DNA from: Bacteroidales bacterium
GTDB taxonomy: Bacteria > Bacteroidota > Bacteroidia > Bacteroidales > Bacteroidaceae
Direction: 5' to 3'
NCBI GenBank assembly: GCA_012517855.1
Contig: JAAYUD010000089.1
Coordinates: 1 to 37,271 of the forward strand
DNA length: 37,271 nt
Position 1 is the stretch's first letter, and every line of letters begins with the position of its first letter. The notes beneath the pieces are model-generated. The model had not been told where the DNA came from and ran no database searches. It was given only the letters and a program-made list of their open reading frames with translations. Shown piece after piece: positions 2,431 through 23,992 of this stretch. A program made the translations under genes and the position numbers.

Positions 2431-4197
2431 ATGGAACAGAAAAAAGTTACATTACGAATAGACAATCATTCAATTACAGTTCCGGATGGAACCACTATTC
2501 TTGAAGCTGCTCAAGAAATAGGTATCAATATACCTACTCTTTGCCATATTGATTTGAAAGGTATGTGCATCAACAATCACCCTGCGTCATGTCGGATTTG
2601 TGTTGTTGAAGTGGAAGGCAGACGTAATTTGGCTCCTTCTTGTGCTACCAAATGTATGGACGGTATGGTGGTACATACTAGTAATCTTAGAGTAATGAAT
2701 GCTCGCAAGGTTGTTGCCGAATTAATCTTTTCGGATCATCCTAACGAATGCCTTACTTGTCCCAAATCCGGTGATTGTGAGTTGCAAAGTCTGGCAAAAC
2801 GTTTTAATATTTGTGAGATGCCTTTTGCTGGTGGTGAGCTCTCTTTAAGAAAGAGAGAAGTAACTGCCTCTATTGTTCGTAACATGGATAAATGCATCTT
2901 CTGCCGTCGGTGTGAAACTGTTTGTAATGATGTCCAGACAGTAGGTGCTCTTGGAGCCGTTCGTCGTGGTTTCAACACAACTATTGCTCCCGCTTTCGAT
3001 AAGAATTTAAGCGAAAGTGAGTGTACTTATTGCGGTCAGTGTGTCGCTGTTTGTCCTGTCGGTGCGCTCACAGAGCGTGATAATACTAATAAACTGATAG
3101 ACGATTTGGCCGATCCGGATAAGGTCGTTATTGTTCAGACGGCACCGGCTGTTCGGGTGGCGTTGGGCGAAGAATTCGGTTATCCGGCTGGAACGATAGT
3201 TACCGGCAAGATGGTTTATGCACTTCGTGAATTAGGTTTTGATTATGTTTTTGATACAGATTTCGCTGCTGATCTTACTATCATGGAAGAAGGGGCTGAA
3301 TTACTCGACCGTTTGACGCGATATTTGGATGGAGATCGTTCTGTGTGCTTGCCTATTTTAACCTCTTGTTGCCCTGCGTGGGTGAACTTCTTTGAACATC
3401 AATTTCCCGATTTGTTAGACATCCCTTCAACAGCGCGTTCTCCGCAACAAATGTTTGGTTCGATTGCTAAATCTTATTGGGCCGAGAAGGTAGGTATTCC
3501 TCGTGAGAAAATAGTTGTTGTATCTGTTATGCCTTGTTTGGCAAAGAAATATGAATGTGATCGTGACGAATTTAAAGTGAAAGGTAATCCTGATGTGGAT
3601 TATTCTATATCTACTCGAGAGCTGGCAACATTAATTAAACGGGCTAATATCGGATTCCGCTTATTGCCGGATAGTGATTTTGATCAACCTTTGGGCGATT
3701 CTACAGGGGCTGGCGTTATTTTTGGTACTACCGGTGGAGTAATGGAAGCCGCCCTCCGTTCCGTTTATGAAATATATACCGGTTCGAAATTGAATAAGGT
3801 AGATTTTCAGCAGGTGAGAGGATTGGAAGGTATTCGTCGTGCAACGATCGATTTAAATGGCTTTGATTTGAAAGTAGGTATTGCCCATGGTCTGGGAAAT
3901 GCTCGTCACCTGCTTAATGATATACGACTTGGCATTAACGATTACCATGTGATAGAGATAATGGCCTGTCCGGGTGGATGCATTGGTGGTGGCGGTCAAC
4001 CCCTACATCATGGTGATGTTGATATTATTTATGCCCGTCAACGTGCCTTGTATAGAGAAGATGCCAGTAAGCCTTTGCGGAAATCTCATGAGAATCCCTT
4101 TATTCAGAGTTTGTATGAAGAATATCTCAGCAAACCTCTTAGCCAGAAAGCTCATGCTTTGCTGCATACTCATTATTTTAATAAGTCTATAGATTAA
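2431..4197 (+). CDS. hydA: [FeFe]-hydrogenase catalytic subunit (HydA/HndD type, group A)
   Basis: The catalytic subunit, 588 residues, reduces protons or oxidises H2 at the H-cluster. Domains in order: a plant-type [2Fe-2S] ferredoxin (Cys in CHIDLKGMC and SCRICVVEVEG), a His-ligated [4Fe-4S] segment (HPNECLTCPKSGDCELQ), two [4Fe-4S] motifs (CIFCRRCETVC and CTYCGQCVAVC), then the H-cluster domain. The three signatures are intact: TSCCPAW at 311-317, MPCLAKKYE from 367, and MACPGGCIGGGGQP from 511. The expected ligands are Cys314, Cys369, Cys513 and Cys517, with Cys313 as the proton-relay residue. A small-subunit-like tail follows. The H-cluster needs the HydE, HydF and HydG maturases, none of which is in this window, so they must be encoded elsewhere for activity. 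It sits between the NuoF-like and NuoE-like subunits in one operon. Confidence 0.95.
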   Translation: MEQKKVTLRIDNHSITVPDGTTILEAAQEIGINIPTLCHIDLKGMCINNHPASCRICVVEVEGRRNLAPSCATKCMDGMVVHTSNLRVMNARKVVAELIFSDHPNECLTCPKSGDCELQSLAKRFNICEMPFAGGELSLRKREVTASIVRNMDKCIFCRRCETVCNDVQTVGALGAVRRGFNTTIAPAFDKNLSESECTYCGQCVAVCPVGALTERDNTNKLIDDLADPDKVVIVQTAPAVRVALGEEFGYPAGTIVTGKMVYALRELGFDYVFDTDFAADLTIMEEGAELLDRLTRYLDGDRSVCLPILTSCCPAWVNFFEHQFPDLLDIPSTARSPQQMFGSIAKSYWAEKVGIPREKIVVVSVMPCLAKKYECDRDEFKVKGNPDVDYSISTRELATLIKRANIGFRLLPDSDFDQPLGDSTGAGVIFGTTGGVMEAALRSVYEIYTGSKLNKVDFQQVRGLEGIRRATIDLNGFDLKVGIAHGLGNARHLLNDIRLGINDYHVIEIMACPGGCIGGGGQPLHHGDVDIIYARQRALYREDASKPLRKSHENPFIQSLYEEYLSKPLSQKAHALLHTHYFNKSID

Positions 4198-5141: not shown

Positions 5142-5315
5142 GAAAGTTGTTATTCTCCAATTTGTATTTCATAACGATTTAAGATTTATTATATTTCTTC
5201 TTTTTCTCAATATTATGAAGAAATAAAATATATTTCTGTTTCCTTCTTTTGCTTATGCAGTATTAAGCTATTGTTTGTATTTAATAATATAAAGACACTA
5301 ATAAACATAATTGAT

Positions 5316-5723
5316 ATGATGAAAACAAAAACTCTGTGTAGAACACTTTTTTTGTTGCTTGTGTTTTTTATGACAGCTTGCAGCAATGATGATAACGTAG
5401 ATATTGATCAATTGGCTGGAGAATGGGGTGTAGTTAATAATGATCCCAATATTCCTATAGATTGTCCTAAATGGTATTTATTTAAGCCAGACAATGTATG
5501 TATTGTGTATTACAATAGCTTTTTGGATACAGAATCAAAGAAAGACAGTTGTATTTATATTGTGAGCAAAGATGGAAGACTTCTTACAATATACAATCTC
5601 AATAAATATGTTGAACAGTGGAAAATATCCAAACTAAATTCTAGCAAAATGACGTGGAAAAGTCTTTCGGCAATCAATGGATTCTTAAACGAGGAATTGG
5701 TCCGGTCGACTCATCGAGACTAG
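5316..5723 (+). CDS. Small putative surface lipoprotein, lipocalin-like
   Basis: A 135-residue protein with a lipoprotein signal peptide: Lys/Arg-containing start, hydrophobic FLLLVFFM segment, then TAC with the lipidated Cys at residue 22. The residues after the Cys, SNDD, resemble the acidic export signal that sends Bacteroidota lipoproteins to the outer face of the outer membrane. The mature part begins with LAGEWGVV and continues with alternating beta-type stretches (KWYLFKPDNVCIVYY), similar to the lipocalin-like lipoproteins common in this phylum. Function is unknown. ATG 5316 is chosen because it places the signal peptide at the N-terminus; the longer frame from TTG 5271 does not. The gene stands alone, convergent with the hydrolase gene at 6118. 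Confidence 0.7.
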   Translation: MMKTKTLCRTLFLLLVFFMTACSNDDNVDIDQLAGEWGVVNNDPNIPIDCPKWYLFKPDNVCIVYYNSFLDTESKKDSCIYIVSKDGRLLTIYNLNKYVEQWKISKLNSSKMTWKSLSAINGFLNEELVRSTHRD

Positions 5724-5880
5724 AGATCTATTGAATGTTGTCTTTCTCTGCGGAGCGTATCTTGTATCATATTTTGGAGTCGCAAGACTTTTTTCAGATA
5801 TACTAACTATCTTTTAAAGAAAATGACCAAGTGTTGTTGTCATTACTTATGGAGGTATTTTCAATTATCTATTTATAGAC

Positions 5881-5908
5881 CTTGCGACTCACGGGCGTGA
5901 GTCGCAAG
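5881..5908. repeat. Perfect 28-base palindrome (unit 1 of a cluster)
   Basis: Arms of 13 bases (CTTGCGACTCACG and CGTGAGTCGCAAG) flank a GG centre. The inner 20 bases are the exact reverse complement of the inner 20 bases of the next palindrome. It lies between two convergent genes. Confidence 0.95.
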
Positions 5909-5968
5909 TTTCGTCCTTATGTTTTTTCCGACTCACGCCCGTGAGTCGGAAAAAACATAAGGACGAAA
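5909..5968. repeat. Perfect 60-base palindrome (unit 2), carrying TTTCGTCCTTAT
   Basis: Two 29-base arms match perfectly around a CC centre. The outer part of each arm carries TTTCGTCCTTATG or its complement, which recurs at 23220-23301. The inner part is the CGACTCACG core shared with the preceding palindrome. As RNA it would form a very stable hairpin in either direction, so it could act as a two-way terminator for the convergent genes around it. Confidence 0.95.
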
Positions 5969-5987
5969 TGATCATGTGATCATTTCG
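5964..5987. repeat. Perfect 24-base palindrome (unit 3), overlapping unit 2
   Basis: CGAAATGATCA and TGATCATTTCG form 11-base arms around TG. The left arm uses the CGAAA that also ends unit 2, so the two hairpins compete for the same bases. Confidence 0.9.
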
Positions 5988-6117: not shown

Positions 6118-6801
6118 CTAGTCTTCTTTTATTTTCAGCTGCTCTGCCACTTTTTTCATTTGTTGTTCAGAGTATCCTCTGAGTGATTCAAAAAAGTGAG
6201 CGTGAGAGATAGTTAGAGGTTTAAGATGCCCGGGATATACTATCATTGAAGGATATTTTATGAATAAGGAGTAGAAGGCGAGAGTCTTTCGTAGGTCTTC
6301 TTTAGAGCCTCCACTCAGATTGGTATAGGTACGGATGTTTGGCACATAGTTGTCTCCCGTAAAGAGAGCTTCATTATCAATGCGAATGGTTGTAGAGCCA
6401 AGACTGTGTCCTAGAGTTAAGTAGAAATAGATAGAGTGGCCTCTCCAGTTGAGTTGTTCTCCGTCTTCAATTATTTTATCTGCCGGCGCCACCTCGAATG
6501 GTTTACCTTCTGTCCAGTATGCCGAATAGTTTCCTCGCGAATGCTGAATTAGTTCGTTGCACTTTTCGCTACAGTATAGTGGGGCATTTGTTTGCTTGTG
6601 TATAGCATTGACTCCGGCACAATGGTCAAAGTGCTCGTGAGTTAGTAGAATAAAATCGATCTTTAAGTCTCTTGATTGGATATAATTCAGTAGCTCTTCG
6701 CTGTCGGCTGTTCCTGCATCGATAACAATAGCACCGCTGCCGTCCGATATGATATAGCAATTGGACGACACCGGTGCATTGATTAATCTTTCGATTTTCA
6801 T
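6118..6801 (-). CDS. MBL-fold metal-dependent hydrolase
   Basis: A 227-residue cytoplasmic metallo-beta-lactamase-fold protein of the glyoxalase II-like group. The metal-binding motif THEHFDH gives His55, His57, Asp59 and His60. Further expected ligands are His132 (LGHSLGS), Asp150 (FTGDNY) and His192 (YPGHLKP). The set is complete, so it should be an active dinuclear metallohydrolase. It is shorter than a full glyoxalase II and lacks an obvious glutathione-binding tail, so the substrate cannot be named; a thioester is plausible. Its start is five bases after the purL stop codon on the same strand, so it is probably co-transcribed with purL, though no functional link is obvious. Confidence 0.85.
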   Translation of the reverse strand: MKIERLINAPVSSNCYIISDGSGAIVIDAGTADSEELLNYIQSRDLKIDFILLTHEHFDHCAGVNAIHKQTNAPLYCSEKCNELIQHSRGNYSAYWTEGKPFEVAPADKIIEDGEQLNWRGHSIYFYLTLGHSLGSTTIRIDNEALFTGDNYVPNIRTYTNLSGGSKEDLRKTLAFYSLFIKYPSMIVYPGHLKPLTISHAHFFESLRGYSEQQMKKVAEQLKIKED

Positions 6802-6806
6802 CGATT

Positions 6807-9800
6807 TTATTTATTCTTCTCTATCCAATGACGGGCATTAACGAAAGCCTCCAACCAAGGAGTCACTTGATCTTTTTCTTTTCTGTCGGCAGGATAGCAA
6901 CCCCATTGCCAAGGATAGATGGCACGTTCGAGGTGAGGCATCATAGCTACATGGCGCCCGTCGGCACTTGCCAATGCTGCAATACTATAGTCTGAACCAT
7001 TAGGATTGCCGGGATATTCATCGTAGCTGTATTTTGCTACAATATTGTAGTGCTTTTCTTCATAGGGAAGAGAGAACTTACCTTCTCCATGAGCTACCCA
7101 AATGCCAAGCTTGTTGCCTTTGAGCGAATCGAACATTACGCTGTTGCTCTCTTGTATGGTAAGACCCAAGAACGATGACTCAAATTTATGAGAATCGTTG
7201 TGGAGCATTTTTCCTTTATTCTCGTCATTCGGGGTAATCAATCCTAATTCCATCATTAGTTGGCAACCATTGCAAATACCTAATGATAACGTATCTTTGC
7301 GTGCGTAGAAATTCTTTAGGGCTTCATTGGCTTTCTCGTTATAAAGGAAGCCGCCGGCCCATCCTTTGGCCGATCCTAATACATCAGAATTAGAGAAGCC
7401 ACCGCAGTAGACAATCATATTGACATCGGAAAGCGTTTCGCGTCCGCTAATTAAATCGGTCATCGTTACATCTTTCACATCAAAGCCTGCCAAGTAGAGC
7501 GACCACGCCATTTCTCGTTCGCCATTTGTGCCTTTTTCGCGGATAATAGCTGCACGTACACCTGTCGGTTGACGACGGGCAGCATCTAATTGATACTGTG
7601 ACAACTTGCCTGTGAAATTATAATTGAATTTGAATTTGAGAGGTTGCGACTTGTAATTCTCATAACGCTTATCGGCGCATCCGTTTATCGATTGTTTACG
7701 GTCGAGCAGATAGGATGATTTATACCAAACGTCGCGTAGTGTATCAATCTCGAAGATATGTGTCGCCTCTTCTTTTTCGATAACCAGATTGCGCTCTTCG
7801 CATGGATAGCCTATCTTGATAAAACCGACGCCAGCTTCTTCGAGCATCTTTTTTACATGGGACTGATTCTTATCGCTCACCTGAATCACAAGTCCCGGAT
7901 TCTCGGCAAAGAGAATCTTAACTAAGTCAGATTCCTGAATTTTGTCCAGTTTAATGTTCATACCACCATTCTCATTGGCAAAGCACATTTCCAACAATGT
8001 GGTAATGAGACCTCCAGCAGATATATCGTGCATTGCCATAATCAATCCCTCGTGAACCAACTCTTGTATCGCATTGAAAGCATCGACAAAATAATCTGAA
8101 TCTTTCACCGTAGGAACTTCGCTGCCTACATATCCCAAAGATTGAGCGAAAGCAGAGCCTCCGAGTTTTAAGTTATCGAAGCTGAAATCGATGTGGAAGA
8201 AGTTTGATTCTTTGTCGTTAACCATTACGGGTGATACAGTCTTCTTGACGTCATCTACTTCGCTACCTGCCGATACGATGACCGTGCCCGGAGAAATTAC
8301 TTTCTCGCCGTTAGGGTAAACTTGAGTCAGAGACAGAGAATCTTTCCCTGTCGGAACATTTACACCTAATTGGATGCAGAATTCACTCAATGCTTCGACT
8401 GCTTCATAGAGTCGGGCATCTTCTCCTTCTTGCGAGCGGCATGGCCACATCCAGTTGGCCGAGAGCGAAATACTCTTTAGTCCATCGCTGAGTGAAGCGC
8501 CTATGATATTCAATAACGATTCGCTGACAGAAAGGATAGAACCCGCTTGGGGATCGGCAAGTCCGGCTTGCGGAGCATGACCGAGAGCGGTAGCAATACC
8601 TTTCGTTCCTGTATAGTCGAGAGCTACGACACCACAGTCGCTCAATGGCAATTGAAAAGCACCTTGCGTTTGTTGACGCGCTACTTTACCTGTTACGGAG
8701 CGGTCTACTTTATTAGTCAACCAATCCTTACATGCCACGGCTTCAAGTTGCAGCACCTTATTGAGATAATCATTTATTGTTTTCGTATCATATTCCGGCA
8801 TCGTATAATGTCGGTCTTTTGTTTTGTCCACCATATAAGTCTTGGGAGATGAACCGAACATTTGCTCCAGACTCAGGTCGTATGGCTTCGTACCGTCTGG
8901 CATTGTGAACGAAAAACGCTGTTCGCCAGTCGCTTCACCAACAACGTACATCGGGGCACGTTCTCTTTCAGCCACCTTTTTCACGTGTTCGAGAGATCTT
9001 TCGTCAATGAGTAATCCCATTCGCTCTTGCGATTCGTTAGCAATGATCTCTTTAATAGACAATGTCTTGTCCCCAACGGGAAGTTTGTCTATTTCGATGT
9101 TGCCACCACATTCGTCAACAAGTTCTGAGAAGCAGTTGACGTGACCTGCTGCACCATGATCGTGAATTGAAACAATTGGATTCGTCTCTTCTTCGCAGAG
9201 GGCACGGACAACATTATAGTCTCTTTTTTGCATTTCTGCATTGGCACGTTGCACGGCATTTAGTTCAATTCCTGTGCTATAGCGTCCTGTATCTACCGAA
9301 GATACCGAACCTCCTCCTAATCCGATGCGATAATTGTCGCCTCCGATCAGTACTATTTTATTTCCTTTTTGGGCAGTTCCCTTTTTGAAGTCGCGTTTGG
9401 CACCATAACCTATACCCCCTGCCAACATAATGACTTTGTCGTAGCCATATTTTTCGCCGTTTTCTTCGTGCTCGAAAGTCAGTAGCGAACCGCAGATCAG
9501 CGGTTGTCCAAACTTATTGCCGAAGTCGCTGGCTCCATTTGAAGCTTTGGTCAGTATTTGTTGTGGCGTTTGATATAACCATTTGCGAACTGGAAGCGCT
9601 TTTTCCCATTCGCGTTCACCGTCTGTACGTGGATAAGATGTCATATATACTGCTGTGCCTGCAATAGGCCAAGAACCTTTACCTCCAGCCATACGATCGC
9701 GAATCTCCCCTCCCGTACCGGTTGAAGCTCCATTGAATGGCTCAACGGTTGTTGGGAAGTTGTGCGTTTCGGCCTTATAAGAAATGACGCTATCAATGTC

Positions 9801-23005: not shown

Positions 23006-23219
23006 GTTGCATTTTGTTGGTAATCAGTATACATTATACACTCTTTTTCTTTTGTGATTGCCAATAAAGTGAATGTCTTTAAATATTCTGATACTTTTTT
23101 ATCCGAACATGCCCGTGGGATGCTCTAGAATGCTTTTTTTAATTGATTCAGTGCCAAATGTAAACTGAATCAGTACAAAGATATAAATAGGGTATGGGGC
23201 AACATGCTGATATACAGCG
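23006..23219. other. Non-coding gap after folD
   Basis: No gene. It contains a TGATTCAGT/ACTGAATCA inverted repeat at about 23150-23175 and, next to it, a minus-strand TATCTTTG box at 23176-23183. A short minus-strand transcript toward the folD terminator is therefore conceivable, but no product is recognised. Confidence 0.35.
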
Positions 23220-23287
23220 AGAAATTCATAAGGACGAAAATAAAAGTTTGTAAGTATAAACTTTTGGTTTCGTCCTTATGAATTTCT
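23220..23287. repeat. Large imperfect palindrome with TTTCGTCCTTAT arms
   Basis: Outer arms of 20 bases at 23220-23239 and 23268-23287 match perfectly and include CATAAGGACGAAA and its complement. An inner pair, AAAAGTTT and AAACTTTT, continues the stem after a two-base mismatch. It belongs to the same repeat family as the palindromes at 5909-5968. Confidence 0.93.
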
Positions 23288-23289
23288 AT

Positions 23290-23301
23290 TTTCGTCCTTA
23301 T
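23290..23301. repeat. Solo TTTCGTCCTTAT copy beside the palindrome
   Basis: A third copy of the unit, three bases after the large palindrome and in the same orientation as its right arm. It could pair alternatively with the left arm. Confidence 0.85.
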
Positions 23302-23992
23302 CATTTTTCGAGGACATAAGCTCGATTTTGTATATCGAGGAGTATATTTTCGATATGGTTAAAATAGTATCAGTATCGCTCCCTATATTCACCTTCCAAA
23401 ACGTTCTGAAAAACAGTATTCACATCACTACTTTAGATCAACACAATCTTGCGTCAATGAGAATGCACGTCTCGAACTCATCAGTAAAGCCCCAGGAAAT
23501 TTAGTGACATGAGATACTCAATGGATGGAACACTCGTCTATGTGCAAAACAGTTCTACAGCTATCTGTAAGGTATCGTTTAGACTTGTTCTAAGCAGAGG
23601 TCCGCTGAAAATAAGGACTCTACAGTATACTCTAAGGCCGATTTTTGGACCTTTTTTCGCTGGCATTGTATACGGTGCATCGTTAACCTACTGTAGGATA
23701 GTGCGTAATGGTGTCATACGGAGGTGGCAAAGGTTGAAATGAAAATATAATTTGATGCATATTCCCGACCTTTATTGCTGAGCTTTTACCCTCCCAAAAC
23801 CACGTATGTACCTAAATTTGTTGACGTCCATACGTTTTCAAAAAAACTTAAGGACGTCACCGAAAAAACTAACATACGACAATTTGGTAAGATAATGTTG
23901 TCTTCTATAATGCTCTCTACTGTATTAAACAATTCTAATTTCGTATTAATAGCTTCTAATTGATTTGAAAAAGGTAATACTAATTTATAATA
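23302..23992. other. Gene-poor stretch of unknown nature
   Basis: About 690 bases with only short open frames (23509-23742 and 23775-23963 on plus). Their translations show no recognisable domain, signal peptide or plausible start region. Base composition looks more even than in the neighbouring A+T-rich spacers. A GACGTCC/GGACGTC inverted repeat lies at about 23825-23858. It could be decayed coding DNA or remains of a mobile element; I cannot decide. Confidence 0.35.

Follow-up and report, generated by a model that had tools for sequence, protein, structure and literature searches.

Between two convergent genes in the 37,271-nt stretch of DNA that was analysed (the window) lies a cluster of palindromes, and this locus raises the question of what such a cluster is. 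An earlier note had taken it for a mobile or REP-type element rather than a simple terminator. The features of the locus are as follows.

5271-5723, plus strand: open reading frame of 150 aa from a TTG start, facing the element.
5868-5877, no strand: degenerate flanking dyad at the YRTNNNNAYR position reading outward, 22 nt left of core 1.
5881-5908, no strand: palindrome 1, 13-nt perfect arms, centre GG.
5885-5904, no strand: 20-nt core CGACTCACGGGCGTGAGTCG, GG centre (core 1).
5908-5925, no strand: link brick GTTTCGT-CCTT-ATGTTTT, on the same 22-nt lattice as the cores.
5909-5968, no strand: palindrome 2, 60 nt, 29-nt perfect arms, centre CC.
5929-5948, no strand: second core, CC centre, the reverse complement of core 1 and exactly 44 nt away from it.
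5964-5987, no strand: palindrome 3, 11-nt arms, centre TG.
6118-6801, minus strand: metallo-beta-lactamase-fold hydrolase gene, 227 aa (PF00753, E 6.3e-21), facing the element.

The description of the locus in the earlier note was borne out. All three palindromes are perfect, the flanking genes converge on them, palindromes 1 and 2 carry CGACTCACG cores that are mutual reverse complements (GG versus CC), and palindromes 2 and 3 have five bases in common (5964-5968). Palindrome 1 consists of the core brick GACTCAC-GGGC-GTGAGTC with CTTG/CAAG ends, while palindrome 2 is composed of the link brick, a CC-centred core brick and the inverted link brick, a layout named F below. The open reading frame at 5271-5723 had no Pfam match at E 0.01; a lipoprotein-like signal (LVFFMTACSNDD) was called in it by eye. 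The palindrome cluster is far from chance. The element strand folded to -72.5 kcal/mol as RNA (z = -13.7) and to -47.2 as DNA (z = -13.4), and in both cases 0 of 200 shuffles folded as well. In 437,271 bases (the window and 20 stretches of its own genome), 13 palindromes had arms of at least 11 nt and loops of at most 6 nt, and the 60-mer had the longest arms among them. Searching the whole window against Rfam at the gathering score returned two tRNAs only and no structured-RNA match for the element.

A genome-wide search had been proposed as the check on whether these sequences form a repeat family, and it was positive. In the draft genome to which the window belongs (3.64 Mb, 114 contigs, 99.92% complete), the core CGACTCACGNNCGTGAGTCG with an NN centre occurred in 48 exact copies, and the form with an SS centre in 54 copies with up to 2 mismatches; the reversed control of each gave 0. 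The sequence TTTCGTCCTTATG had 108 copies over the two strands (53 + 55; reversed controls 0). Palindrome 3, searched with up to 3 mismatches allowed, was found nowhere else in the genome, and its centre lies off the lattice. The three palindromes are therefore not a single element: palindromes 1 and 2 make up a repeat copy and palindrome 3 stands outside it. The core was found in 0 of 300 other family genomes and 0 of 60 relatives, two overlapping sets in which no genome of the same genus is listed, and in no viral contig. The GTDB contig set, from which records of the own genome may have been left out, gave 2 core stretches, one in Lysobacter and one in a Planctomycetota MAG; by our own estimate, chance alone would give 3.7 matches to 18 fixed bases over 257 Gb. 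Palindromes 1 and 2 are thus one copy of a repeat that is confined to its own genome among the genomes searched, and that is mostly intergenic. In a collection of plasmid records, the protein nearest to the PurL of this genome is that of Bacteroides finegoldii (77.6%), followed by that of Phocaeicola massiliensis (75.6%), and we therefore place the host in the Bacteroidales, near Bacteroidaceae.

The genomic contexts were called from crude ORFs (threshold 90 aa) at 36 loci, that is, the window and 35 fetched loci among the places listed, which hold 52 core matches. Eleven loci were convergent, 11 tandem and 5 divergent, 2 lay in short ORFs, and 7 had no assignable context, so that 27 of the 29 determinable loci were placed between ORFs. 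The cores were nearly invariant and the flanks variable (45 sites after merging identical 40-mers). Core copies were also observed at the ends of several contigs of this draft (the ends of C17, C57, C86 and C96 and the starts of C32 and C56). Palindrome copies probably break the draft assembly, which gives these repeats some relevance to assembly.

The copy number bears directly on the view that the locus is a local bidirectional intrinsic terminator for its two convergent genes. The very stable hairpins and the convergent genes suit such a terminator, and convergent gaps were mildly over-represented among the placed copies (11/27 versus 31/150 background gaps, P 0.046; the background gaps of at least 60 bases comprised 80 tandem, 39 divergent and 31 convergent). 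The other 16 of the 27 copies lie outside convergent gaps, however, and since core copies occur genome-wide, a local terminator is not the main explanation. The earlier note had also stated that no T-run follows the palindromes. This agreed with the repeat as a whole, as T-rich sequence (at least 5 T in 8, within 14 nt) was present at 4 of 70 outer ends, with the T residues scattered and including the brick's own T tract. It was less exact for the locus itself, where a weak terminator-like pattern was found on the minus strand at 5988-5963 with the tail CCTTATGTTT; the 2,001 bases scanned held 2 such sites versus a shuffle mean of 1.0. Moreover, palindrome 2 carries its T tract on the 5' arm and its A tract on the 3' arm, the wrong way round for a terminator. 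We consider this explanation very improbable.

The copies are built into composite units. There were 16 double-core loci, and the two cores were spaced by exactly 44 nt in all of them. Six, including the window, had the F layout (core, link, core, inverted link), in which the right arm starts with GAAAAAA and inverts the link; four of these, including the window, had GG/CC centres, a fifth had GG/GG and the sixth GC/CC. The other ten had the layout S (core, link, core), always with CC followed by GG, and ended with CAAG or, once, GAAG. The order CC/GG therefore separates the two layouts (S 10/10 versus F 0/6, Fisher P = 0.00012), and the GG-then-CC succession of centres described in the earlier note, although true of the window copy, belongs to one layout type and is no general rule. 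A third unit, B, has one core and further CATAAGG-type bricks, and B ends were found at 12 of 20 single-core loci, two of which were cut by contig ends.

Cores, links and flanks all lie on a lattice that the earlier note overlooked. A 7-nt half-site, a 4-nt gap, the inverted 7-nt half-site and another 4-nt gap follow each other, so that the orientation of the half-sites flips every 11 nt and dyads recur every 22 nt. The first part of the element reads GACTCAC GGGC GTGAGTC GCAA GTTTCGT CCTT ATGTTTT TTCC, and the second part reads GACTCAC GCCC GTGAGTC GGAA AAAACAT AAGG ACGAAAT. Reading outward from the core at 51 open ends, one of which (L050, minus strand, 2957) turned out to be a link that leads to a mutated core, we found the degenerate dyad YRTNNNNAYR, with Y at offset 8 in 50 ends, R at offset 9 in 50, T at offset 10 in 50 and A at offset 15 in 46. 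Of 63 ends, 35 had the strict form at offset 8, compared with a mean of 0.73 per offset. Centre to centre, this flank dyad is 22 nt away from the core, and the next core follows at 44 nt; in the window, the dyad at 5868-5877 departs from the consensus at one of its six fixed letters. Pairing between the arms that flank the cores was only weakly above shuffle (z 2.5 and 3.0 at offsets 1 and 6; 46 sites with full flanks) and was below shuffle at several outer positions, and selection for long hairpins is thus unsupported.

The same period was then sought in other sequences with Tandem Repeats Finder. The sample of own DNA (the window and 20 chosen 20-kb stretches of long contigs) gave 22 calls of period 22 in 17 places, compared with 2, 7, 3 and 1 calls for periods 20, 21, 23 and 24. 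After two all-N loci (L129 and L132) had been dropped, five local dinucleotide shuffles gave a mean of 1.0 calls of period 22. In 571,152 bases of family relatives there were also 22 such calls versus 2.0 in the shuffled sequence, some of them duplicates and some within ORFs. Period 21 was raised as well, with 7 calls versus 1.2 shuffled in own DNA and 8 versus 3.0 in the relatives. In own DNA, dyads at spacings of 11, 22, 33 and 44 occurred in 6, 7, 5 and 4 cases, while other spacings averaged 0.19. In the relatives this dyad-spacing test was weak: G004, G007 and G009 each showed spacing 22 a single time, and G031, G012, G002 and the mixed rest did not show it. The period-22 arrays of the own genome are unrelated in sequence, being of CACATATGTG with GATC spacers, of AACTAACGGAAGTTA, of GACGTCC types and of GTCTCACNNNNGTGAGAC, and those of the relatives carry other sequences again, such as TTCACTCGAGTGAA and AAGTATAATACTT. 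Order-level relatives (272,622 bases) showed no peak at period 22 (6, 4, 5 and 5 calls for periods 20 to 23), by which the lattice looks like a family-level property. Among 50-kb samples of named genomes, that of Phocaeicola massiliensis held one 4 x 22 array (CAGTC..GACTG) and that of Parabacteroides distasonis one 22-nt array, which starts 22 bases past an annotated stop codon; the samples of Prevotella OT299, Bacteroides finegoldii and E. coli K-12 held no period-22 array. No description of a 22-nt dyad lattice was found in the available part of the open-access literature on Bacteroides, Bacteroidales or Bacteroidetes, which is weak evidence of novelty, and this style of repeat is apparently undescribed so far.

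One sister class was followed through 61 genomes with a three-dyad CACN4GTG pattern at fixed 22-nt spacing. The own genome had 29 matches, G012 had 12, G018 had 6 and G024 had 3, while the other 57 had none; the reversed control matched once per strand, in G007 only. The 29 own matches correspond to 17 arrays, and two more found with a looser pattern (L106 and L119) bring the number to 19. Counting a dyad if 5 of its 6 fixed letters fit, and comparing half-sites on their first four letters, we found exactly four dyads in 19/19 own arrays and in 6/6 arrays of G012. The outermost half-sites were alike in 15 of the 19 own arrays (shuffle mean 5.1), and like neighbouring half-sites were avoided (11 of 133, shuffle mean 35.2); neither value was matched in 2000 shuffles. 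The arrays of G012 agreed, with outermost half-sites alike in 4/6 (P 0.01) and neighbours alike in 3/42 (P 0.0255). G018 and G024, in contrast, broke these rules, with 4, 5, 4 and 3 dyads and outermost half-sites alike in 0/4 for the former, and with 3, 4 and 3 dyads and 0/3 for the latter. The half-site GACTCAC of the studied element also occurs in three own CACN4GTG arrays (L111, L119 and L191). Unlike this class, the element has core half-sites that are identical neighbours, and this makes its palindromes perfect.

Further arrangements of half-sites were observed. Tetrads of 84 bp (L105 8483-8566, L109 13068-13151, L112 17036-17119 and L120 12767-12850; also L183 and L194-L203) consist of GTNNCAC-type half-sites, mainly in three variants, with the outer ones mostly alike and neighbours mostly different. 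The homologous CACATATGTG/GATC arrays at L106 15473-15556 and L119 7125-7208 differ by a swap of the two inner arms with the outer half-sites kept, a coordinated change of several half-sites.

The question of what moves or maintains the repeat was approached through candidate partner genes. Extragenic palindromes are usually put down to RAYT transposases, and the studied repeat resembles a classical REP mobilised by such a RAYT (Y1/TnpA-REP) enzyme in being a short, mostly extragenic palindrome of about 50 copies in a mosaic, alternating arrangement. The profile of this transposase (PF01797, Y1_Tnp), the presence of which the earlier note had put forward as a check, had 0 matches in the own genome and matched 5 of 14 control genomes, so the search works; the 99.92% completeness of the draft leaves a small gap. 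In addition, none of the 51 open core ends had GTAG in its first 16 nt. We regard a RAYT-driven REP as the least probable of the explanations weighed here. The interpretation in the earlier note was partly supported: the repeat family is confirmed, and both a simple terminator and a RAYT-driven REP are disfavoured.

The two transposase profiles searched (PF01797 and PF01609) yielded a single ORF, a DDE_Tnp_1 gene of 418 aa, in the own genome. A self-megablast of 682,062 own bases (the window and 75 loci) for IS copies that might be parents gave 136 matches of at least 300 bp, and the longest 60 of the 136 were all between loci of a second, long repeat, which also has a copy in the window.

23083-23883, minus strand: copy of the long mosaic repeat (modules D, G and C), sharing the CATAAGGACGAAA/TTTCGTCCTTATG module.

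This repeat is about 830 bp long and was collected from the window and from loci including L084-L103. The centre of module C was collected in 28 copies, with a pairwise identity of about 75-92% among the matches listed, and modules D, G and C were also found singly. At L049, a copy of the long repeat lies between a core and a diverged core-like palindrome (CGACTCATAGTTATGAGTCG; 3001-3020 and 4103-4122).

AAA_14-DUF4143 genes were tried as the autonomous partner and rejected: three of the four own DUF4143 genes adjoin other short direct repeats called by Tandem Repeats Finder, and one adjoins none. The repeats alongside the own genes at L177, L178 and L179 are direct repeats of 23 to 33 nt and, judged by eye, are not bricks. 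In the relative G054, a 420-aa AAA_14-DUF4143 gene (L169 8338-9600) lies between 23-nt arrays (CTCACAAGTTTGTCAGTTTTTAC) at 8231-8298 and 9647-9736, and gene and arrays possibly form a self-contained unit. In Parabacteroides distasonis, arrays of 21 to 23 nt (L210 14745-14825 and 38630-38683) precede two Rpn-family nuclease genes by about 300 bp; the Rpn profile PF12784 had 0 matches in the own genome, but also 0 in the 14 control genomes.

The reading that we prefer, and to which we give an even chance, is that the element is a non-autonomous, BIME/MITE-like mobile mosaic repeat recognised in trans by a putative dimeric factor. The F, S and B units would be non-autonomous mobile DNA that is copied in trans, and the lattice would be the footprint of a dimeric DNA-binding protein, either a transposase or recombinase or a partner that cooperates with it. 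Half-sites about one helical turn apart (11 bp) and dyads two turns apart (22 bp) suggest by their geometry that the dimers would dock next to one another along a single face of the helix. Read-through transcripts would form strong hairpins as a side effect. Mobility is suggested by the recurrence of composite units at scattered sites and by their restriction to one genome. A constant target-site duplication was not seen by eye in the flanks, and no autonomous parent was found, Y1 being absent and the DDE_Tnp_1 gene single in the own genome. No pair of filled and empty sites could be compared, as one genome of the species was available and no same-genus genome is listed.

Two other accounts explain part of the same evidence. 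The first is that the repeats are host-function arrays, immobile and maintained by selection, whose dyads would serve a nucleoid-type or regulatory protein as phased operators or as anchoring sites. A phasing of two helical turns and the fixed brick number of the own CACN4GTG arrays would suit cooperative binding, and nearly invariant cores between variable flanks fit as well. Nevertheless, the 11 convergent, 11 tandem and 5 divergent copies hold no single regulatory position, the core is missing from 300 other family genomes, in contrast to what a conserved host system would show, and the recurring F and S units look copied rather than built site by site. We judge this account unlikely. The second account, which we find quite improbable, traces both the spread and the symmetry to DNA repair alone. 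Hairpins would undergo snap-back or template-switch synthesis that copies and symmetrises the arms without a dedicated recognition protein. It is in line with the right arm of palindrome 2 in the window, the exact inverse of its link brick, and with L017, which has the same change in both arms; four of the five other F copies (L020, L026, L027 and L046), however, have changes that are unmatched in the opposite arm. Furthermore, repair alone leaves unexplained both the 22-nt period common to unrelated sequences and genera and the avoidance of like neighbours in the CACN4GTG arrays.

Beyond the mobile mosaic repeat itself, a wider interpretation is possible, which we put forward tentatively and rate as somewhat less than probable. 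The family of this genome, near Bacteroidaceae, may hold an unrecognised class of small non-coding elements that are set by geometry and not by sequence, the sequence turning over between genera while the lattice persists, driven by a putative protein family that reads spacing first. Such a class, taken together with this interpretation and held just as tentatively, would have alternating 7-nt half-sites every 11 nt and often exactly four 22-nt dyads, with like outermost and unlike neighbouring half-sites in some genomes, and the studied element would be its perfect-palindrome branch. The own genome, in which no RAYT is detectable, holds several palindromic repeat families that follow a common geometric rule, and related genera show this rule again with different sequences. 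The 22-bp phased dyads, the brick number and the half-site code thus offer a testable handle on what copies or binds such repeats.

Compared with known systems, the element behaves like a BIME or a MITE and does not demonstrably fit either definition in full. MITEs in general are, like the element, small, apparently non-coding, multi-copy inverted repeats. The element differs from them in that, within the limits of our tests, neither a target-site duplication nor a parent transposase was found; as to terminal inverted repeats of the MITE type, its core units are largely palindromic, and their ends are indistinguishable from the interior. With the REP and BIME sequences of the E. coli type, as generally understood and as the available part of one article describes them (PMC3733652), the element shares short extragenic palindromes in dozens of copies with a lineage-restricted distribution, and an alternating orientation in a mosaic with linker motifs; the F, S and B units are such a mosaic of palindromes and linkers. 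It is unlike them in its perfect palindromes, in having no RAYT gene found and no GTAG tag, and in a 22-nt lattice that is common to families of different sequence. The available part of the same article also reports CGTC-tagged REPs, palindromic repeats without a dedicated transposase, with Bacteroidetes among their phyla (PMC3733652). These have an unpaired CGTC at one end, whereas no such end tag was found in our element, where CGTC sits inside the paired arm of palindrome 2 (the F layout); CGTC was present at positions 8-11 in 9 of the 51 open flanks.

Two repeats of the Bacteroidales come closer. BrickBuilt, as described in the available part of its report, is a MITE found only in Porphyromonas gingivalis and P. 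gulae, intergenic, made of 23-nt bricks and predicted to form long stem-loops; it is a tandem direct repeat with a leader, a tail and IS5-like terminal repeats, GAGACCTTTGCA (PMC4596501). Going by that description, the element is likewise from the Bacteroidales, but a 23-nt tandem direct repeat is not found in it, its unit being a dyad of period 22 with few bricks per unit. PINSR, according to the part of its report available to us, is a 188-bp repeat of Prevotella intermedia, highly amplified, intergenic and clade-restricted, without terminal inverted repeats (PMC4755523). It belongs to the Bacteroidales like our element, and the same text describes it neither as palindromic nor as a lattice, a comparison made by description only. 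On these partial descriptions, BrickBuilt and PINSR are the nearest described relatives of the element by habit (PMC4596501, PMC4755523).
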